Assembly (NCBI RefSeq): GCF_002706795.1
Contig: NZ_CP017705.1
Coordinates: 700,001 to 764,000, forward strand
Direction: 5' to 3'
DNA: 64,000 bases
From: Brevibacillus laterosporus DSM 25
GTDB lineage: Bacteria > Bacillota > Bacilli > Brevibacillales > Brevibacillaceae
Both the position numbers and the translations under genes were made by a program. Shown here in pieces: positions 50,103 to 63,497 of the stretch (positions within the stretch are counted from its first letter, which is position 1; each line of letters opens with the position of its first letter). Below the pieces are notes generated by a model. That model had not been told where the DNA came from. It made no database searches and saw only the letters and a program-made list of their open reading frames with translations.

Positions 50103-50378
50103 CTACAAAATCACCAGCCTTTTATTAGCCTCGTCATACCAGCCTTCTGTTAACGTGATGTCATTAAGCGTTGCGAAGTTTTCAAAGAACACATTGTCCG
50201 TGAAGTTGTTAAACACCGCATCTTTTATCGTCTTCACATCAATCTGCAAAGCCGAAATAGCCACTGTGTGCTGTTCCAGTAGCTTGTGGGCATCGTCTAT
50301 TCCTTTTTCCCATCGGTTAATATCCGTTTCCATGACAGGATCGTCATAGTTCCAATCTAATTTAGGATTGTAGGGCAT
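50103..50378 (-). CDS. small tail protein upstream of fibre, module B
   Basis: 91 residues starting MPYNPKLDWNYDDPV, with DINRWEKGIDDAHKLLEQH, a helix also found at the N-terminus of the 206-residue module A gene (VDEIRLNHIEEGIYNAHFLIE). It looks like a shortened version that lost the C-terminal part. Likely fibre anchoring or chaperone. No known family assigned. Confidence 0.55.
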   Translation of the reverse strand: MPYNPKLDWNYDDPVMETDINRWEKGIDDAHKLLEQHTVAISALQIDVKTIKDAVFNNFTDNVFFENFATLNDITLTEGWYDEANKRLVIL

Positions 50379-50658
50379 CAGATTTCACTCCTTTCACTTC
50401 AAATTCGAATCGGAATTCCAACGATTGATCGCTTAATACATCCACATTAGCCGTTCTTTCTGTTATGAGATTGCCTGCTTCATCCAGCAGTTTTAAAGAG
50501 GACACCTTCGTTATCCCGCTCACTGGCTCTGTTATTACCACCACCTTATTTCCATCCTGCTTGGTAGTTCTCAATTGGACTGTTTGGTTGTTTAATATGA
50601 GGCTAGAAGTACGTTGACTTAAATCTTGTGCCGCCCGTTCCAAATAGGCTTTATCCAT
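50362..50658 (-). CDS. small tail protein, module B
   Basis: 98 residues, beta-rich, with no signal or membrane segment. Same place and size as the 99-residue gene of module A. ATG at 50658 overlaps the XkdU stop (TGATG), with GAGGTG upstream. Function unknown; probable baseplate accessory. Confidence 0.55.
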   Translation of the reverse strand: MDKAYLERAAQDLSQRTSSLILNNQTVQLRTTKQDGNKVVVITEPVSGITKVSSLKLLDEAGNLITERTANVDVLSDQSLEFRFEFEVKGVKSDALQS

Positions 50659-51245
50659 CAAATAATCACCTCATCCTGATATTTAATAGGAGTCATACCA
50701 ACTCGAAATTCGCTAACCTTGTGATAACGTCTCCGATTGATTTTGATAATTTCACTAATCGCAATCTCATTTGACACCGCCAGCTGTGGTATAAACACAT
50801 GCGGAACCCGCTTTCGCTTATGAATGTCATACACCCAAGAGGCTACATCAAAAATCGACCATAGAGGTACCGAGATATAGAAATAACCAGCATCGGGATT
50901 TTCCTCTATGAATACTTGTTCAGCAGCTTGTTCTTTGATAAAAAGCTTGGTAATACTACTTGCCAGCGCTGGCGTAAAGGGCAGACGCTCCCGATACTTT
51001 GCCATCACACGTGCACGTCGCGTCTCATAGGAATCACCCTGCTTGGGAGTAACCTGAAACATATACTCCCAATACGGTAGTCCCCATGTAACTGTGGTGA
51101 TCATCGTTTGCCGTTCCAAATCTAGCTTCCGAGTCTGTTGGTACGCTCTCTCTGCTTCTCCTGCCTCAAAATGGTGCACCGCTACCTGATTCTCATACCA
51201 ATAGGGAGGTAACATAGCCCGATATTTTTCTGGGATCATCGTCAT
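50658..51245 (-). CDS. YmfQ/XkdU-like (DUF2313) tail protein, module B
   Basis: 195 residues with LPPYWYENQVAVHHFEAGEAE at the start (conserved LPxYWY), as in DUF2313 proteins that sit between baseplate J and the fibre in Mu- and PBSX-like phages. ATG overlaps the baseplate J stop (ATGA). Paralogue at 54962-55513. Confidence 0.8.
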   Translation of the reverse strand: MTMIPEKYRAMLPPYWYENQVAVHHFEAGEAERAYQQTRKLDLERQTMITTVTWGLPYWEYMFQVTPKQGDSYETRRARVMAKYRERLPFTPALASSITKLFIKEQAAEQVFIEENPDAGYFYISVPLWSIFDVASWVYDIHKRKRVPHVFIPQLAVSNEIAISEIIKINRRRYHKVSEFRVGMTPIKYQDEVII

Positions 51246-52069
51246 GGCCTACTCACCGTCACATTTTTCACAATCGGTATGGTTGAAAAAGTGAAGTCGA
51301 TATTCTCCTGAGCATGATTGAGCAAAACATTCCGATAATCTATCACTCCAGCTACCTTAAACAAGCGATAGATTTCAGAATAAAGGATCTTCTTGCTCTG
51401 CTTATTGATATATTCCACAATGCCAGCTCGTATCTGCTGTTTTATTTCATCCACAGATACAGAAGATTCCCACTCCAATAAGTCTCCGCTGATGGTTATC
51501 TCTAATGCTTTCGCAGCTTGAACCACTACTTTGTCGTTTAAACTATGCTTATCTGGCTGTGCTAGATGCTCCGTTACTGTTTTTACTAAAGCTTCGTCGG
51601 CAGGCTGCCCATTCTGGTCGGTTAACGCAATATGCACTGTGTTTGGCGCCTCACCCCAGATAAACAGCTCACCTACATTAGGTACTTCCTTCACCCAGCG
51701 CTTGTAATCATATTCAGCGCCTGATCCCTCCTCTTCCCCAGCCTTGGCAAACAAGCGCTGGCGATACAGCTCGTCTGGCTCGGTGACTTTTCTCTTCACG
51801 CCTAAAAACACTCCCCAGGCGTCTAAAAATTCTCCATCCGCCCAGGGTAAGTACCATTGCAAAAAACGATATTCGTCCAATTGTTGTTGCTCGGATATTT
51901 CTAAAGCGAGAGGATAGTGAAAATCATAAAAAATTTCGCCTTCTTCTGGGGAAGGTGGCGTCTCACCACGGGCCTGAGCAAGTTCACTTGCCCGATTATA
52001 CATCCGTTGGTAAATCTCTTCTGCTGTTTCGCGTAACAGGGGCATCTCCGGTTTTTTTGCCTCTGACAT
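51242..52069 (-). CDS. baseplate J (XkdT-like) protein, module B
   Basis: 275 residues of the baseplate-J/gp47 family: EIFYDFHYPLALEISEQQQLDEYRFLQWYLPWADGEFLDAWG marks the family head; GAEYDYKRWVKEVPNVGELFIWG follows. Start at 52069 (ATG) has AAGGTGGTG upstream; the frame also opens at 52081. It begins a second module after a terminator (52120-52152), a strange place for a core baseplate gene. Clearly paralogous to 55510-56325. Confidence 0.85.
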   Translation of the reverse strand: MSEAKKPEMPLLRETAEEIYQRMYNRASELAQARGETPPSPEEGEIFYDFHYPLALEISEQQQLDEYRFLQWYLPWADGEFLDAWGVFLGVKRKVTEPDELYRQRLFAKAGEEEGSGAEYDYKRWVKEVPNVGELFIWGEAPNTVHIALTDQNGQPADEALVKTVTEHLAQPDKHSLNDKVVVQAAKALEITISGDLLEWESSVSVDEIKQQIRAGIVEYINKQSKKILYSEIYRLFKVAGVIDYRNVLLNHAQENIDFTFSTIPIVKNVTVSRP

Positions 52070-52119
52070 CTCTATCACCACCTTGTTAATTGGAGAGCCG
52101 TATAACCGACTCTCCCATG

Positions 52120-54055: not shown

Positions 54056-54676
54056 TTATACCTGCGTAATCGTAATCGTATGTGTATTCCAACCACCGAT
54101 TCTCATCTTCTGCACAGTTGTATCTCGATTCACCGTTGATCGTGCGATCATGGCTCCTTTTTTGTAGCTGTTGACCAGCTTAGAAAGAGTTATCTTCCCT
54201 GATCCAATTGCTGTGATAGCCTGATTCTCAAAAGCTACATCATCACAAATCGTAACTTCTTGTCCAACCGTGAAGCCTGTTGTTGAGGCAACAGAAATAG
54301 CCACAGCAAAAGCACTAGAGGATAGAGCTACTGTGGCATAGGTTTTCGTCTCATCCAATTGTAAAACAGGGTCTATTTGTCCATCATAGGTATCTGCAAA
54401 TCTTGCCTGTGCTCCTGAGACTCCTCGGCTATCAATGTCTAGATGGGCTTCAATACGGGAAATACGGCGACTCGCTTTTTCAATCAAAAAGTGGGCATTA
54501 TAAATCCCCTCCTCAATGTGGTTCAATCGAATTTCATCTACAGGCGTACCTGCAATCTGTTCCCACGCAGGGGCAATGGAAACTGTACCGTCTTCATTTT
54601 GATGAAAGTTGTATATGTTGGGGCGATCAACAAGACGGTTGATGTGGAGCTGTTTTTCATACGCCAAATCATTCAC
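54056..54676 (-). CDS. tail protein upstream of fibre, module A
   Basis: 206 residues. N-terminal helical half (about 1-85) with VDEIRLNHIEEGIYNAHFLIE, then a strand-rich C-terminal half (TVGQEVTICDD). GTG start overlaps the stop of the gene before it. Compared with module B's 91-residue gene, this one has an extra C-terminal domain. Function unknown. Confidence 0.55.
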   Translation of the reverse strand: MNDLAYEKQLHINRLVDRPNIYNFHQNEDGTVSIAPAWEQIAGTPVDEIRLNHIEEGIYNAHFLIEKASRRISRIEAHLDIDSRGVSGAQARFADTYDGQIDPVLQLDETKTYATVALSSSAFAVAISVASTTGFTVGQEVTICDDVAFENQAITAIGSGKITLSKLVNSYKKGAMIARSTVNRDTTVQKMRIGGWNTHTITITQV

Positions 54677-54968
54677 CTGCCTTCCATTGTAGTTCGATTG
54701 GTATGCTAAGAGTTATTTCACGGTTAGGTTTCTCCATTTGCAAGCGATCTTCCCAAACTACCTGTCCGTTGACATCTTTTACAATACATTTCGTTACTAT
54801 TCCTGTCATGGAGGCTGAGATACGGATCAAAAAAGTAACTTTATTAACACTTTGTCGTATTTTCAATAAACTAACAGGAACGATTTTATCATCCAGTTCT
54901 ACCTCTGCCGAATAAAAAGCAGATTCCAAGGCATTAGCCTGTCCCTCTAATAGATGGTCAGTTAGCAT
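54669..54968 (-). CDS. small tail protein, module A
   Basis: 99 residues of mixed beta strands, matching the 98-residue gene of module B in place and size. Overlaps both neighbours by a few bases (coupled translation). No family recognised. Confidence 0.55.
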   Translation of the reverse strand: MLTDHLLEGQANALESAFYSAEVELDDKIVPVSLLKIRQSVNKVTFLIRISASMTGIVTKCIVKDVNGQVVWEDRLQMEKPNREITLSIPIELQWKAGE

Positions 54969-55513
54969 AAATCATTCTCTCCTCCGCTAAAAAAAGCACC
55001 ACAATCCCTTTTTTGTGTTTCATAAAACTTTGTCGGACCTGATGTAAAGGTGATCCCTCCATAACTACTTGCAATGATTTTCTCTTTCAGAACATGAACA
55101 GGTCGTATTTTTTCAAAATCAACTGCTAGCTGCATCAGATTTATTGATCGATAACCTGAGAACTCAAATAGGATTTCCTTATTAGTGAAATCCTCTGTAA
55201 CTTTCTTTAGATCTCCTGCCATTCTGCCTAATACGTACAATGTATCTAATGTAAAATTGGCTTTTGCTATATTCTTTTTACGTATCTCTTCTCTTCTTTC
55301 TTCTACTGTACCGTTCCGTTTGTCTCCAAAATATATCCAATCCCATATATCTAATCCAAAAGTTGCATAAGGCAAAAGATACTGATTTCCCAGCTCTTTT
55401 ATTTTATTGTTTTGAAACAAAATCTCTTCTTCTGTTGACACCAAGTGGAGCCTAGCCACTTCGTTATCATACCAATATGACGGTAATTGCTTGCGATATC
55501 GAATAGGAATCAT
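54962..55513 (-). CDS. YmfQ/XkdU-like (DUF2313) tail protein, module A
   Basis: 183 residues with the same LPSYWYDNEVARLHL head and DAIF-like ending. ATG overlaps the baseplate J stop (ATGA). In Mu-like phages this protein joins the baseplate wedge to the fibre. Confidence 0.8.
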   Translation of the reverse strand: MIPIRYRKQLPSYWYDNEVARLHLVSTEEEILFQNNKIKELGNQYLLPYATFGLDIWDWIYFGDKRNGTVEERREEIRKKNIAKANFTLDTLYVLGRMAGDLKKVTEDFTNKEILFEFSGYRSINLMQLAVDFEKIRPVHVLKEKIIASSYGGITFTSGPTKFYETQKRDCGAFFSGGENDLC

Positions 55514-56325
55514 AGTTCAACCACCAAATTAACAAACGGTACAGCTTTTATTGGTTTACTAAGATTTTCTGTTCCGTCATTTAAGGTATAGTTTGAATAG
55601 TCCTTTACGCCATCAACCCAAAATAGTGCACCTAGCAAATGATAAACGATGCAAGTGCTGCCTTTTATATATTCTTGAATTCGATTTGTAATAAGTGAAG
55701 TTATCTCCGATCTCTTCGATACATCAGCTAATTGAAGCTTTACCCTCACATTAAGGTTGAAAATTTCAGCAGGAAAACATTTTAAATCATGACCTGCAAT
55801 ACGTTTTGGCTCCAGTTGATTCTGTAAGAGAGAAGCAAATTCTAATGTAACAGGCTGACCCTGCAAGTCAGTCAGATATAAATCAATCGATACATCATGA
55901 CGCTCGTGTTCAATGGCAACTGCGCCACCAACTCCCTCCACTTCTAAAGCCCACCTTATATAGTCCTCTGCACGTCCACTTCCCTCCTCAGTTCTCTTTT
56001 TATGGAGAATTCGTTGCCGATAAGCTTCGGTTTCCTCCCCCTCTTTACGGTCTACTCCTTCTGCATATCCATGGGCATCCAGAAACTCTCCATCACTCCA
56101 AACCACAAATGCCTGTAAGAGACTATATTGAGATAATTGTTGTTGTTCCGAAATTTCTTTTGCTAACGGATACCAAAAATCGTAAAAAATCTCTCCTTCT
56201 TCCGTAGCAGGAGGAGATTGTCCATTTTCTCTTGCATAAGCAATCGCACGATTGGCTATTCGCTGATAAATATGATCTGGGCTTTCTTGAAGAATCGGCA
56301 TTTGCGGCTTCTCTAACGTTTCCAA
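55510..56325 (-). CDS. baseplate J (XkdT-like) protein, module A
   Basis: 271 residues. Family head EIFYDFWYPLAKEISEQQQL, and the same order as the module B copy. TTG start inside the XkdS 3' end has AAGGTGG upstream. It is the canonical copy, directly after XkdS in the PBSX order. Confidence 0.85.
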   Translation of the reverse strand: METLEKPQMPILQESPDHIYQRIANRAIAYARENGQSPPATEEGEIFYDFWYPLAKEISEQQQLSQYSLLQAFVVWSDGEFLDAHGYAEGVDRKEGEETEAYRQRILHKKRTEEGSGRAEDYIRWALEVEGVGGAVAIEHERHDVSIDLYLTDLQGQPVTLEFASLLQNQLEPKRIAGHDLKCFPAEIFNLNVRVKLQLADVSKRSEITSLITNRIQEYIKGSTCIVYHLLGALFWVDGVKDYSNYTLNDGTENLSKPIKAVPFVNLVVEL

Positions 56326-57958: not shown

Positions 57959-58573
57959 CTAGGCTTTGCTCTTAAATTCAGCATTTTTCTTTTGGATACG
58001 ATTGAGCTGTTTGCTACGGATTTCTCTATCCTGATGAATCATATTTTGGGCTGGTGTTAGTAAATATGGGTTTGCTTGCTGTTTCTTCGCTGTCTTTCCT
58101 GTGGTGTTGGCACGAGCTTTTTGTTGCTTAGCCATGATCACTGGTGGCTGTAGAAGCTCTTTGTTACTTGACCACTCTACAAACTCGTCTTTGATAAAAA
58201 TAGGCAATTCGATCGACCCGTAATAATCCACATTCATTCCTTTAAACGTCCCATCTACAGGTCCAATCAATACATTCCAAGCTAAATTCAGTTCGTCAAT
58301 CGTGAGCAAAACTTCTTTCCCTGAGATACGATCTAAGCCTGCTAACCATTCACGCGGTCCCTGATAGCCTTCCACTTCAATTAAAGGCGACTCTATATTA
58401 CCTGGAAGCCAAAAATCAAAGGAAATTGATTTCGCTCGATTAGCAGATAGTCTGTTTTTGGTAACAAGCGAAATGCTGGTAGATGTTTCTGCATCGTTCC
58501 CGTAGCCTTTTACTTGCACCTCTGCTGGGGTTACGGGAAACGTCAGCCGATATTTTCCCTGCATACGAATCAT
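57959..58573 (-). CDS. xkdP: XkdP-like phage protein lacking a LysM domain
   Basis: 204 residues. The N-terminal half (1-130, FPVTPAEVQVKGYGNDAETS, PREWLAGLDRISG) matches the XkdP body. The C-terminus is a basic, Lys/Gln-rich tail (QQKARANTTGKTAKKQQ) instead of the LysM wall-binding domain usual for XkdP. ATG overlaps the tape measure stop. A shortened tail may affect wall contact during infection or killing. Confidence 0.7.
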   Translation of the reverse strand: MIRMQGKYRLTFPVTPAEVQVKGYGNDAETSTSISLVTKNRLSANRAKSISFDFWLPGNIESPLIEVEGYQGPREWLAGLDRISGKEVLLTIDELNLAWNVLIGPVDGTFKGMNVDYYGSIELPIFIKDEFVEWSSNKELLQPPVIMAKQQKARANTTGKTAKKQQANPYLLTPAQNMIHQDREIRSKQLNRIQKKNAEFKSKA

Positions 58574-61104
58574 GCTTTTCCACCTCTTGTCTCTAATGCA
58601 TTGACGAAAGCAGTCTCGATGATACGCTTTATTTCATTCGTAACGGTAGGGTCTTTCAATAATCGAATCATGCCTACCACATCCTGAAGTACACCATCTG
58701 CATGTAGCGTGATGGGCATAGTTGAGACCGTTACCGATAGATTTTGAGCTGACTCCTTCTTATCTGCCGCATTCGTAGCTACAGGCTTTACGGGCGGTGC
58801 TGGTGTTATAGCTAACGTATCTTGTGGTTTTCTTCTCATAGATTTGATCTGACTAGCATCATCACTAATTGGAATCGATGGCTGTGCGGGTGGCACTGGT
58901 GCAGGAGGTGTCTCTTGCTTTTCTTTTCCCCATCCAAACCAATCAGGCAATTTTTCCATGAGGAAGTCTCCGCCAACCGAACCTAAAAATCCACCAACTA
59001 CTCCGCCAACAGCTGTTCCTAATCCCGGTACGATCGAGCCAACTGTGGCACCAATCATAGTACCTGCGGCTTTCATCCCAGCGCTTCCACCTAGCTTTAA
59101 TAGCTCCATCGGTTTATTGTCAGACGTAGCTAATGAAGCGAGATCCATGGCTTCTCCTACAAAAGGAATTTTTTTCAGCAGGCCTTTTCCAAAGGATTTA
59201 ACCCCACCAAAGCCTTTGCCGCCCAGATTCTTTAATCCGTCCCACGCGGCTCCACCGAAGCTTTTTATCCCTTCAAAAGCTTTGCCACCAATGTCCTTTA
59301 GTTTTCCAAAACCGGTAGCTGGCTTGCCAGCTTTTTTGGGAGCTGTAGTAGGGAGAGTAGCTTTACGAGAAAGTGGTTTGGCTGGTTTAGGTTGAGTTTT
59401 TGGTTTCGTTGGTTTTTTCTGATTGCTTGGGTTACTTGGATTATTTTTGGGTGATTTGCTGGCTCCTCCAGTGTTTTTTCCGCCGAATTTGGAGGGGCCT
59501 AGCTTTCTTTTCCCCTTTTTTCCTCCTCTTTTTTTCTTCGAGCCCTTACGCTTATCTCTTTTTTCCCCACCTGTATCGCTGCCATCTGTGCAACAGCATT
59601 TATCTTGCTTATTGTCTGGGCCATCACCACCACCATCGCCTTGGTCATTTTCTTTCGCCCATTTAGCAAGAAGATATACTCCCAATCCTTCTAAGGTATA
59701 TCTAATCCCCGCTGGTAGTTGATTAAAAATTTGAATACCTGTAGACAACGCACCAGTTAACATTTTTATTACAGGGGTTAAATCCTTGGCTACCGTAGCT
59801 GTTAAGTCCACCATAGCTGCTTTGGCTTCGCTTTGAGCTTTCATATATTCAAACCAAGGATTTTGGTCGATTGCAGCCTTATAGGATTTATTTACTTCGT
59901 TATTAGCTACTTTATTTTCCACTTCGCCAGCAGAAATTTTCCCCGTTTTCTCCAGCAGTGGCACTAGATGCTGTAATAGCTCCTTGCCGGAACCTGAGCC
60001 TACTGCATTTAGCATCTCTTGACGTACATTATCATCTTTAATAGAAGCAAGATTCATAAAAATACGTCCCATTGCCGTCTGATTATCGCTTTTATTATCT
60101 GAATGCAATAGCTGGGTTACTTGGATGGCCTCACTGTCAGCCAAGCGTTTGGCTTCCTCAGGACTTTTTCCATCCGCCTCATAACCTTTTTGTAATACAC
60201 TACTCAGATCGCCCTGAGTAGACATTTTTAATGCAATATCTTTTAAGGCGCCTAGTGGCATGTCATTTGATGCAATTCCCATGTTACCAATTTCGCCGAC
60301 CAGCATCGCCATTTTCTCTGGTGTATCCATTACCATCCCTAGCTGGGAAGTATATTTGATCATAGAGGATACAAAATCGTCGCTAAAATCCTTCATATTG
60401 GTACTCATATATTGAAGAGAATTCGCAAGTCGCTCAGGATCACTAACTCCTGTGCTGTCGCGTAATAGAGCCATCATTTTTAAGCTCTGATCAGCAGAGA
60501 ACCCTGTAGACATACTTAATTTGGCAGCAAATTCGGCATATGCAGCCTTATCCTTTGAATTTACCTCGTCACTTCTGTTATAGATGGATATAGCCTCTGT
60601 TTTGCTTACATTCGGGTTAATTTGGAGCATTTTCTCAACACTGCGATCTAAATCTTGGACCTCAGCATCCGTTTTTCCTCTGGCAATAAATAATCCTCGT
60701 TCTTTTGCTGCAGATTGAGATTCGGGGATCGAGTTTTTGTACCACCTCATCGCCTGCCCTCTTAAATCAACAAAGGGGTTAGCGGAGCCGCCATCGTCTC
60801 CTCCACCACTCACCACAACGGGTTGACTAAACTGACTGCGCATTTGCGAAATCTTTTGTGTCGCCTGATCATCTATTTCCACACGAAGCTTGGCTTGGAC
60901 AGAAGTTCCGAGTTGCTGTAATTGAGAACGTACCTCTTTTATACGCCGTTCCATTCTATCAGCTTCTCGTAAAAAATCGCGTCCCATCTGTCTCCAAGCT
61001 ACTTGTAACGAGACCGAATCTCTTTTCCATGCCATCATGCCCTGCCTTACCTTGAACATCTCTTTCTGGACGGAAAGGAGCTCGACTACCATATCGTTGC
61101 TCAT
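58570..61104 (-). CDS. xkdO: tape measure protein (XkdO-like)
   Basis: 844 residues. Helical N-terminus (1-110), a globular middle, one membrane-like segment near 465-490 (LEGLGVYLLAKWA), a Lys-rich low-complexity linker (about 495-600) with a Cys triplet (DKCCCTDGSD), and a Gly-rich hydrophobic segment (about 690-740, AGTMIGATVGSIVPGLG). Tape measure length sets tail length; at 1.5 A per residue the tail would be roughly 125 nm. ATG at 61104 has GGAGG eight bases upstream. Confidence 0.8.
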   Translation of the reverse strand: MSNDMVVELLSVQKEMFKVRQGMMAWKRDSVSLQVAWRQMGRDFLREADRMERRIKEVRSQLQQLGTSVQAKLRVEIDDQATQKISQMRSQFSQPVVVSGGGDDGGSANPFVDLRGQAMRWYKNSIPESQSAAKERGLFIARGKTDAEVQDLDRSVEKMLQINPNVSKTEAISIYNRSDEVNSKDKAAYAEFAAKLSMSTGFSADQSLKMMALLRDSTGVSDPERLANSLQYMSTNMKDFSDDFVSSMIKYTSQLGMVMDTPEKMAMLVGEIGNMGIASNDMPLGALKDIALKMSTQGDLSSVLQKGYEADGKSPEEAKRLADSEAIQVTQLLHSDNKSDNQTAMGRIFMNLASIKDDNVRQEMLNAVGSGSGKELLQHLVPLLEKTGKISAGEVENKVANNEVNKSYKAAIDQNPWFEYMKAQSEAKAAMVDLTATVAKDLTPVIKMLTGALSTGIQIFNQLPAGIRYTLEGLGVYLLAKWAKENDQGDGGGDGPDNKQDKCCCTDGSDTGGEKRDKRKGSKKKRGGKKGKRKLGPSKFGGKNTGGASKSPKNNPSNPSNQKKPTKPKTQPKPAKPLSRKATLPTTAPKKAGKPATGFGKLKDIGGKAFEGIKSFGGAAWDGLKNLGGKGFGGVKSFGKGLLKKIPFVGEAMDLASLATSDNKPMELLKLGGSAGMKAAGTMIGATVGSIVPGLGTAVGGVVGGFLGSVGGDFLMEKLPDWFGWGKEKQETPPAPVPPAQPSIPISDDASQIKSMRRKPQDTLAITPAPPVKPVATNAADKKESAQNLSVTVSTMPITLHADGVLQDVVGMIRLLKDPTVTNEIKRIIETAFVNALETRGGKA

Positions 61105-61141
61105 TGCATTCACCTCCGTTCATGCTACATCTTTCCTTCAT

Positions 61142-61173
61142 AAAAAAACGGCGGAGGATATCACTCCTCCGCC
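61142..61173 (-). terminator. terminator between chaperone and tape measure genes
   Basis: Perfect 9-bp stem (GGCGGAGGA/TCCTCCGCC, loop of 6) followed by GTTTTTTTA on the minus strand. The stop of the frameshift product is inside the loop. Confidence 0.75.
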
Positions 61174-61322
61174 TCTAATTCAATGATCTGACATGCGATA
61201 ATAAATAATTTTTGCTTATACCGATCCACTTCATATTCAACAATTTCCGCCGGGAGACCTCTGCCATGCAGATAAGCCTTCGCTACATGCCAAGCCTCCG
61301 CGTCGGATTGAATTAGTTTTTT
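61161..61322 (-). CDS. -1 frameshift extension of the tail assembly chaperone
   Basis: The heptamer A-AAA-AAC (61316-61322) lies immediately before the chaperone stop TAA. Slipping back by one base opens a 51-codon frame (CTA ATT CAA...) to TGA at 61161-61163, with an acidic helical end (QIIELEAEE). It would give a 177-residue fusion, like gpG-T of lambda. A short stop-proximal site with no strong downstream pseudoknot visible. Confidence 0.7.
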   Translation of the reverse strand, partial: KKLIQSDAEAWHVAKAYLHGRGLPAEIVEYEVDRYKQKLFIIACQIIELEAEE

Positions 61323-61693
61323 GCTTCTTCAATCGCTTCCTCTTCCGTCTGACCCTGATTTGCTTTGCGTACCGTTTCTAAAAGGAGTGCATAGGCGTCT
61401 GGGTTGCGGTCAAACAGTTTGCCGGGAAGTTCAAATTTATCGCCTGCCTTGAACGCTTTCTTTAGCTCTGGATCATTCCAATTAAAGTCGTGTTCGGTCG
61501 CCTTCACAATGCGAGCATCATTGTAGCGGTACCAGTCGAATTTATCACCTTTATCTGCCTCTCGCTCGCAAATACGACCTTCCATTAAGGTAAGCTGACG
61601 TACCTTCCATACCTCACCATCAATGCTGACTTCTACCTCATGACGTGGTGTTGTTTCATTTGCTTGCGCTAAAAATTTTTCTAATTTCCCCAT
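61313..61693 (-). CDS. xkdN: tail assembly chaperone (XkdN-like)
   Basis: 126 residues of Pfam PF08890 (phage XkdN-like). Core VRQLTLMEGRICEREADKG and ARIVKATEHDFNWNDPELKKAF. It sits between tube and tape measure genes, where chaperones with frameshift products are found. RBS AGGGGG before ATG. Ends next to the slippery site. Confidence 0.85.
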   Translation of the reverse strand: MGKLEKFLAQANETTPRHEVEVSIDGEVWKVRQLTLMEGRICEREADKGDKFDWYRYNDARIVKATEHDFNWNDPELKKAFKAGDKFELPGKLFDRNPDAYALLLETVRKANQGQTEEEAIEEAKN

Positions 61694-61704: not shown

Positions 61705-62157
61705 CTATTCTTCTGTATATTCTGGTAATTTATCAAGGTAATCAGGCTTCTTGTTACTGCGACCCTTAATTTCATAAGTCGCATTATCGTTTCCGTCCGC
61801 CTTTGCTTCCCATAATGTGATTTCTTCTGGGTTTAGATAGATATCCGTTAAACGAACTCGTTCTGTATTACCGTTTTCCTTATCGATCATTTCGCCCAAA
61901 AGCTGTGGAATTACAGGAGTTTTGCCCTCGGTAATTTGATCCACGCAAAAATATTTGAGCAGGGCGTTAACAGATGATACCTTTAAAGTAACCTCTACAT
62001 GCCAGGAGTCAATGGTTTGTACCGAGCCCTTTTGCAGACGTTTTACGTCACCATACTCTGTTTTTAGGACAGCTTTCCCTTCCAATGTACCGTAGATTGG
62101 ATCACCATTTTCATCGTATACCTGACAATTTTTTAATTTAATATCGCTTTGACGCAT
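61705..62157 (-). CDS. xkdM: tail tube protein (XkdM-like)
   Basis: 150 residues, LEGKAVLKTEYGDVKRLQKGS and WHVEVTLKVSSVNALLKYF match XkdM tube proteins. ATG at 62157 (the GGGAGG ribosome site overlaps the end of the sheath gene). Directly follows the sheath gene, as in PBSX. Confidence 0.85.
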   Translation of the reverse strand: MRQSDIKLKNCQVYDENGDPIYGTLEGKAVLKTEYGDVKRLQKGSVQTIDSWHVEVTLKVSSVNALLKYFCVDQITEGKTPVIPQLLGEMIDKENGNTERVRLTDIYLNPEEITLWEAKADGNDNATYEIKGRSNKKPDYLDKLPEYTEE

Positions 62158-62159
62158 GC

Positions 62160-63497
62160 TTACAGCACCTCCCATTCAATATCGAAAAGCTCAATAGCAT
62201 CAAGTGGCTTGGCTGCTAGGCGGAAACCACGTTTGTCACCAATTCCATTTTTCTTATCTTCAAAAATCCAGCCCTGTTCAATAGCTCCTTGCGCTTCACG
62301 CACTTCAAGGTAGGTTTTAACCGCACCAACAAACGTCGCACCGCCAATATCGTTATTATCCAGTTTACCTTTATACTTTTTGCCTACAGAGGTAATGTCA
62401 TTAACAATTTGGTCGAGCGTCATCGAAACGCGAATTTTACCAAAATCCTCACGCTCTACTGCTTTTAATGTCGTTAAGGTATTGACGGCACTTTCAATCA
62501 AGTACACGTCACCGTCACGAACTGCAATCAATGTACCAGAGTTAAGTGCATTTTGAATTTCGGTGTGTCCCCAATCTTTTGTCGCTTTTTTCAACGGAAC
62601 CAGCTGTGCACTCAGAGAAATGTGGGCAGGTGTAGCGGCAATCATACCAGCTAGCCATGCCGCCCATTCTAGGCTTCCATAGGTCTTGCCGTTCACATGT
62701 TGACCTGCAATGGCGCAGTTTACGACACGTCGAGAATTGTTGGCTACAGAACGCTCTACATGCTCGTTCATGTTGCTATCTTTTTCTGGCATACCACCGA
62801 TTACTAGCGTGCTACGTTTTTTGCTGAAAAGCTCGCGATCAACCATGAATTGTTTGGCTGCTGCTTGAATTCCAGCGTCAGCTGACGGCAAATACATCGC
62901 GTCGAAATCAATACCTGCGATGGAGTTAAATAAAGTGGTAAAGTCATTTGCCGCTAGAGTAGTGATGCCACTTGTTCCACCTGACAGTGACGTCAGCGTT
63001 GTTTCTTCTGCCGCTTTGTCACCCAGCTTTTTCACTTTGATATAAATGGATTGTTCTGCTTTGGTTACTAGCTCGTCCATATTTGCAAAAGAAAACTTCT
63101 CTGTTTTTACCGGACCTTTGACCTGTAATTCCTTTTTCCCTAATTCTGCTGTTGAATCTTTAATCGAGATTTGTAGTTCGTTACCAACTAGGCCTGGATA
63201 ACGTGCTTCGATGGCAAAGGAACCTTCTTGCGAATAGGTAGCCGCGACACCCTTACCGTTCGTCATACGATAGCCAACTACAGTAGCGCCTCCTTCTGCG
63301 GCCAACTCTAAAATTCCAATTTGTCCAAAGGTTTCTGCTACGCGCTCTTCATAGCCCTTCATAGTAATGACTTGATCAGGAGCTCCCCATTCAGCTAGAT
63401 ATGGTACAAGTACCACACCACTTTTAGGTAGAACTCGTTCCTGCGCTTTCGCTTTTAATTCTACGTTTACACCTGGTCGTTCACGTTGGATTGTCAT
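62160..63497 (-). CDS. xkdK: contractile tail sheath protein (XkdK-like)
   Basis: 445 residues with the sheath head RPGVNVELKAKAQ, the central LSGGTSGITTLAANDF, and the C-terminal domain (KTYLEVREAQGAIEQGWIFED). Contractile tail, so the element is a myovirus-like phage or tailocin. RBS GAGGAGG. Confidence 0.9.
   Translation of the reverse strand: MTIQRERPGVNVELKAKAQERVLPKSGVVLVPYLAEWGAPDQVITMKGYEERVAETFGQIGILELAAEGGATVVGYRMTNGKGVAATYSQEGSFAIEARYPGLVGNELQISIKDSTAELGKKELQVKGPVKTEKFSFANMDELVTKAEQSIYIKVKKLGDKAAEETTLTSLSGGTSGITTLAANDFTTLFNSIAGIDFDAMYLPSADAGIQAAAKQFMVDRELFSKKRSTLVIGGMPEKDSNMNEHVERSVANNSRRVVNCAIAGQHVNGKTYGSLEWAAWLAGMIAATPAHISLSAQLVPLKKATKDWGHTEIQNALNSGTLIAVRDGDVYLIESAVNTLTTLKAVEREDFGKIRVSMTLDQIVNDITSVGKKYKGKLDNNDIGGATFVGAVKTYLEVREAQGAIEQGWIFEDKKNGIGDKRGFRLAAKPLDAIELFDIEWEVL

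Follow-up and report, generated by a model that had tools for sequence, protein, structure and literature searches.

The window, the 64,000-nucleotide stretch of a complete Brevibacillus chromosome (B. laterosporus DSM 25) that was analysed, carries on its minus strand a run of tail genes in which a chaperone gene lies between those of the tail tube and the tape measure protein, as expected of a tail assembly chaperone (TAC; Table 1). The 3' end of the chaperone ORF reads GCA AAA AAC TAA, which places a slippery heptamer in the phase X_XXY_YYZ directly before the stop. The -1 frame starts with CTA (61316), continues for 51 sense codons and closes with a TGA at 61163-61161; the in-frame heptamer near the 3' end, together with the long open -1 frame, is the lambda-type arrangement. 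A fusion made by a shift at this site would have 177 amino acids and a mass of 20.6 kDa, with NLIQSDAEAWHVAK as the predicted junction peptide and GLPAEIVEYEVDR from the extension. The coordinates and lengths given in the preliminary description for the heptamer ending at the TAA and for the open -1 frame were all confirmed on the minus strand. Scanning 57-64 kb of the window against Rfam gave zero matches.

Table 1. Features of the chaperone locus, in window positions
Feature	Position	Strand	Basis
Tape measure/XkdO-like protein, 847 aa, downstream neighbour	58570..61113	-	tail lysin/tape measure PHROGs
Terminator-like hairpin + T7 across the -1 frame stop, ahead of the tape measure gene	61142..61173	-	folding, z -3.28
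-1 frame extension, 51 aa (LIQSDAEAWH...ELEAEE) + TGA	61161..61316	-	open frame, Ka/Ks, motif, predicted fold
Stem-loop 3' of the heptamer, base ~8 nt away, candidate frameshift stimulator	61246..61307	-	folding
TAA of the 0-frame, abutting the heptamer	61313..61315	-	sequence; adjacency in relatives
Slippery heptamer A_AAA_AAC	61316..61322	-	sequence; conservation among relatives
XkdN-like tail assembly chaperone, 0-frame product, 126 aa + TAA	61313..61693	-	sequence, PHROG 389, PF08890, fold
Tail tube protein (DUF2001/XkdM-like), upstream neighbour	61705..62175	-	profile matches
Contractile tail sheath (XkdK-like), 445 aa	62160..63497	-	profile matches

Terminator-like hairpins of differing sequence occupy the same position in most Brevibacillus tailocin loci; the one in the window perhaps lowers expression of the tape measure gene.

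We identify the 126 amino acid protein as an XkdN-like tail assembly chaperone. It matches PHROG 389 over its full length (E-value=4.4e-14) and falls just short of the cut-off of PF08890 (Phage_TAC_5), at 25.3 against 27 bits (E-value=1.6e-5), and a family profile built from its relatives matches YqbN (3KLU) at 7e-37. The chaperone and its extension were folded separately. The AlphaFold2 model of the chaperone (pLDDT 89.8) has the TAC fold, with matches to YqbN 3KLU (Z=11.4, rmsd 3.6 over 109) and to the HK97 TAC 2OB9 (Z=7.9, rmsd 2.9 over 97). Near-identical loci belong to B. laterosporus. A tblastn search of phage records gave zero matches with the window protein and 34 records with a clostridial relative. 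The same genome holds two further XkdN-type loci in which A_AAA_AAC abuts the stop, at G000:C1:2977002-2977391 (L076/L151; 59 amino acid -1 extension) and C1:4061956-4062300 (L077; 57 amino acids).

An amidase gene at 47.2 kb forms one end of the cluster; at the other, immediately beyond the window's right edge, are genes for a sigma factor and a divergent HTH regulator. Ordinary chromosomal genes flank the cluster. Besides the sheath, tube, chaperone and tape measure it specifies LysM-type and YqbQ proteins, lysis proteins and two baseplate/fibre modules. No portal, capsid, terminase or integrase gene was found among the ORFs scanned (the main ORFs of window 47.2-64 kb and of the next 18 kb). 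The element had been taken for a phage, a view which is not borne out: with sheath, tube, baseplate and lysis genes but without head or integration genes among these ORFs, it is best read, from its gene content, as a tailocin of Brevibacillus laterosporus, a contractile tail cluster lacking a head. The baseplate J and tail fibre modules are duplicated within the one cluster (50103-52081 and 54669-56325, minus strand), possibly conferring two host-binding specificities. The sigma-factor-like gene (PHROG 1190; L181 2489-3145, minus strand) and the divergent HTH regulator gene (L181 3924-4280, plus strand) lie just upstream of the cluster and are likely to control it. B. laterosporus strain 1821L is the source of a purified, bactericidal phage tail-like bacteriocin of the PBSX-like type, whose XkdK-like sheath measures ~48 kDa (PMC9406221). 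The species, the XkdK-like sheath and the XkdN and Xpf-like neighbours are common to both systems, but terminase and integrase genes are reported near the 1821L locus. Since the sheath in the window is 445 amino acids long, the two may be the same particle.

Relatives of the chaperone were gathered from Bacilli and other Bacillota by protein similarity or the presence of PF08890, the slip site being no selection criterion. Profile searching located 163 rows, among which the window's own locus is counted more than once, and 162 of these carry A_AAA_AAC in frame at the chaperone 3' end. The sole A_AAA_AAG occurs in L152, where the stop lies 18 codons downstream. Dropping extensions more than 80% identical left a non-redundant set of 93 loci. 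Of 720 further ORFs (minimum 100 amino acids) from these loci, none terminates in AAAAAAC-stop and, given 162 of 163 against 0 of 720, the heptamer at the frame end is not there by chance. The AAC codon is kept in 90 of 90 loci where a change to AAU would be silent in both frames, and AAU appears in none (p=8e-29, a value which, like the other p-values, overstates independence because the loci share descent, the low-redundancy sets being the safer guide). A_AAA_AAU followed by UUR would retain the Asn of the 0-frame, the Leu of the -1 frame and the stop, and would be expected in about half of the loci from Leu codon usage; that AAC is never exchanged for AAU points to codon-anticodon slippage at exactly A_AAA_AAC. 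Detection of only the 126-residue product, together with a -1 frame not conserved among relatives, had been set beforehand as the result which would speak against frameshifting; heptamer and extension alike proved to be conserved.

The slip site had also been described as lacking an obvious stimulatory fold. This was wrong, as a strong and conserved hairpin lies ~8 nt downstream. Nested folding of nucleotides 5-75 after the heptamer gave a mean z of -2.47 (92 loci); stretches farther downstream and upstream averaged -0.38 and +0.07, respectively. With peptide-preserving (synonymous) shuffles the mean z was -2.2 (n=91), unchanged in the 27-locus low-redundancy set, and the window fold itself scored -2.65, three of 300 shuffles being equally good. 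Pairing jumps at nucleotides 8-10 after the heptamer in the 93 loci, which is the usual spacer for a -1 stimulator. Two clades share the same 5' arm and have different 3' arms; the stem register is paired in 82% and 93% of cases, respectively, versus 24-66% in slid controls, and covariation is modest, lying above shuffles in the second clade and being borderline in the first. Judged by these comparisons, the stem-loop is conserved and selected, and is a candidate stimulator. A crude stacking-energy scan for H-type pseudoknots revealed none in the window and candidates in about half of the loci, which were inseparable from the strong first stem. An upstream Shine-Dalgarno-like stimulator was not enriched (mean z +0.58). 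In the window, GAUUGAA and UUCAAUC on either side of the slip site could pair into a hairpin; this was rejected, the upstream-inclusive fold being no better than shuffles (z 0.78).

Programmed -1 frameshifting in the chaperone gene is very likely on these comparative data. The reading that we favour, with a probability of about 0.9, is ribosomal -1 slippage on A_AAA_AAC, aided by the hairpin, which would yield a 126 amino acid G and a 177 amino acid GT product in a tailocin. We infer that the slippage takes place on the ribosome and that its rate is a few per cent. The majority of ribosomes would read xkdN to the TAA and release the chaperone (G), while a small share would be delayed at A_AAA_AAC by the stem-loop; tRNA-Lys and tRNA-Asn would then re-pair one base back and the adjacent stop would be bypassed, the slipped product being the fusion (GT) with its 51-residue helical domain. 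By analogy with lambda, G would coat the tape measure protein, the fusion would link the tape measure to the tail tube subunits, and the two together would set the tail length of the headless contractile particle. Tail length control by the lambda chaperone products is documented (PMC5009743), and the extension may, on that analogy, have a function in it. In E. coli, A_AAA_AAC supports -1 slippage only weakly (PMC4066793, PMC5009743); its efficiency in Bacillota is taken here as an assumption.

The position of the 0-frame stop deserves further attention. In 82 of the 93 non-redundant loci it abuts the heptamer, and in 90 it lies at most one codon away, whereas simulations in which the extensions were back-translated with background codon usage gave 48.5 (maximum 62 in 500 simulations) and 54.5 (maximum 67), respectively. 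Adjacency also exceeded expectation in the low-redundancy sets (46 versus 26.2 among 51 loci, and 25 versus 14.4 among 27). The first codon of the extension is CTA, which creates TAA, in 60 of 90 loci against a background of 14%, and loci with CTC instead mostly regain the stop at the following codon (CTC ATA A). Since adjacency lies above the coding expectation, there is, by this statistical measure, selection for a stop at the slip site or right beside it, over and above the coding of the extension. Such a stop probably helps, either because ribosomes stall there or because G then terminates precisely where slippage would occur.

The first of these roles can be carried further. The adjacent stop might itself be the stimulator, with AAA-AAC in the E and P sites (or in the P site), the stop in the A site and a release factor competing with the -1 slip, a so-called shifty stop. 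The excess of adjacency and of CTA, its survival of redundancy filtering and the return of a stop one codon on in most loci lacking CTR all favour this explanation. Moreover, published TAC frameshifts average 26-36 nt to the stop (PMC10885494), the TAC_12 loci compared here have 11-61 codons to it, and gp17.1* of SPP1 is made by a stop-adjacent +1 shift at CCC UAA (PMC6316719). Against this, all three stop codons occur at the heptamer-adjacent position, loci with the stop one codon away carry an intervening sense codon, adjacency could be selected to spare the unshifted product an extra tail, and an 8-nt spacer is equally normal if AAC occupies the A site during slippage. In addition, one Brevibacillus subclade (L010, L024-L027, L030 and L045) has kept heptamer and extension and lost the adjacent stop (CTC/CTT). 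Its 0-frame continues for 15-25 codons past the heptamer, and in most of its loci the native downstream fold does not outscore shuffled sequences. Stop adjacency and the strong fold were probably lost in one evolutionary event, and this co-loss is, as a contrast, at most suggestive: either neither element is indispensable, or the subclade is decaying. On balance, stimulation by the stop itself is a possibility against which we lean. The broader proposal of an ancient XkdN recoding signal of the Bacillota, in which an A-site stop and a hairpin together make the poor A_AAA_AAC slip and the G:GT ratio depends on release factor, is unlikely, though worth stating.

Hairpin-aided ribosomal slippage has also to be weighed against slippage of RNA polymerase on the A6 run. 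Realignment of this kind occurs in bacteria (PMC3711429), and the run is rich in A. It is, however, always exactly six A long, preceded by C or T and followed by C; AAU never replaces AAC, and the conserved downstream RNA fold and the codon phase fit a ribosomal rather than a transcriptional event. We regard a polymerase origin of the extension as very improbable.

The extension evolves as protein. Its Ka/Ks was 0.133 in the -1 frame versus 1.79 and 2.53 in the other frames, an approximate value, as many pairs among the 37 distinct Brevibacillus-type sequences are Ks-saturated, and changes fall mostly at third positions of the -1 frame codons. Sequence comparison thus indicates that it is under purifying selection. 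Extensions in the family are 50-75 amino acids long and share the motif LI(K/R)xG(D/G)...P.E....KAF..A....E, in which L1 and P22 are invariant (50 sequences). The predicted fold of the window extension is a compact small helical domain (pLDDT 95). Checked for homology to lambda T, the extension gave zero matches against Pfam and PHROG and has no recognised relative; a weak fold search returned nothing informative, the best named match being a Microbacterium phage tail assembly chaperone (E-value=5.6).

Seven phage records were examined and none annotates a frameshift, the second product being missed or partly listed as a hypothetical ORF. Three of them list a 3' piece of the extension as such a stand-alone ORF (Jimmer2 gp22, PBP180 ORF21 and phiCDKH02_45), as if the -1 frame were a separate small gene, reinitiated after the TAA. 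Conservation begins, however, at the first post-slip codon (L1 invariant, I2 above 90%), upstream of any start codon, and no start codon is conserved in frame at the head of the extension: ATG, GTG or TTG occurs within the first 20 codons in 43 of the 93 loci only, and at no fixed place. A separate gene is therefore very improbable. In Streptococcus phage EJ-1, as deposited (L169 1495-2091), chaperone and extension form one continuous frame, which as it stands speaks for a fusion product, and the slip site is present in MismyG, a near-identical phage; the single frame may be a natural fusion or a sequencing error. That the overlap is due to chance, or is a decayed frameshift in a dead prophage remnant, as the missing head genes might suggest, can be dismissed in view of the purifying selection on the extension, its conservation in 162 loci and the occurrence of chaperone homologues in 28 of the 39 genomes of the family.

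Programmed ribosomal frameshifting, as favoured here, would extend the tail-chaperone mechanism, by way of a single and nearly unchanging signal, to a very common Gram-positive family of phage and tailocin tails, whose second product is largely missed in the public records examined. The loci also form a natural data set, including a clade without adjacent stop and fold, for asking whether a stop beside a slip site promotes -1 frameshifting; the same set bears on the question of why this heptamer, inefficient in E. coli, is the one used in Bacillota.

Among the closest known systems is XkdN-YqbN of PBSX and skin (PF08890, PHROG 389), with which the Brevibacillus chaperone has sequence family and fold (3KLU) in common; the Brevibacillus branch is divergent from the family profile (25 bits), and slip site and extension are present in nearly all relatives sampled. 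No description of frameshifting in the XkdN family was found in the open-access literature searched. An earlier suggestion of A_AAA_AAC concerns a phage of Paenibacillus larvae (PMC6003738). The same heptamer serves bacterial -1 frameshifting in a different gene, IS1 InsA-InsB', where slippage at AAAAAAC (the A6C motif) is reported to be ~2% (PMC12428005). Within the Bacillota, the tail chaperone of SPP1 (gp17.5/17.5*) undergoes -1 frameshifting at UUUUUUC (PMC6316719) and, with the TAC_12 chaperones of Gram-positive siphophages, resembles the window in this respect. The TAC_12 loci, though of the same class, differ: their candidate heptamers lie well ahead of the stop, and their -1 frames are open for 129-180 codons. 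Compared with these and with published TAC frameshifts, the window signal stands out by its abutting stop and short extension. The preliminary description had assigned the site to the lambda G/GT mechanism. Like gpG/gpGT, the window has a chaperone between tube and tape measure, a probable -1 slip near the 3' end and a predicted longer fusion with an extra domain, and the assignment to TAC -1 frameshifting at a compact, stop-abutting site is supported. In lambda, G and GT are absent from the mature particle. The lambda slip site is G_GGA_AAG, whereas here A_AAA_AAC abuts the stop and is followed by a downstream stem and a 51-residue extension, so that in slip site and stop adjacency the likeness fails. 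Tail chaperone frameshifting as such is well known, and the XkdN signal is a variant of the lambda-like kind.
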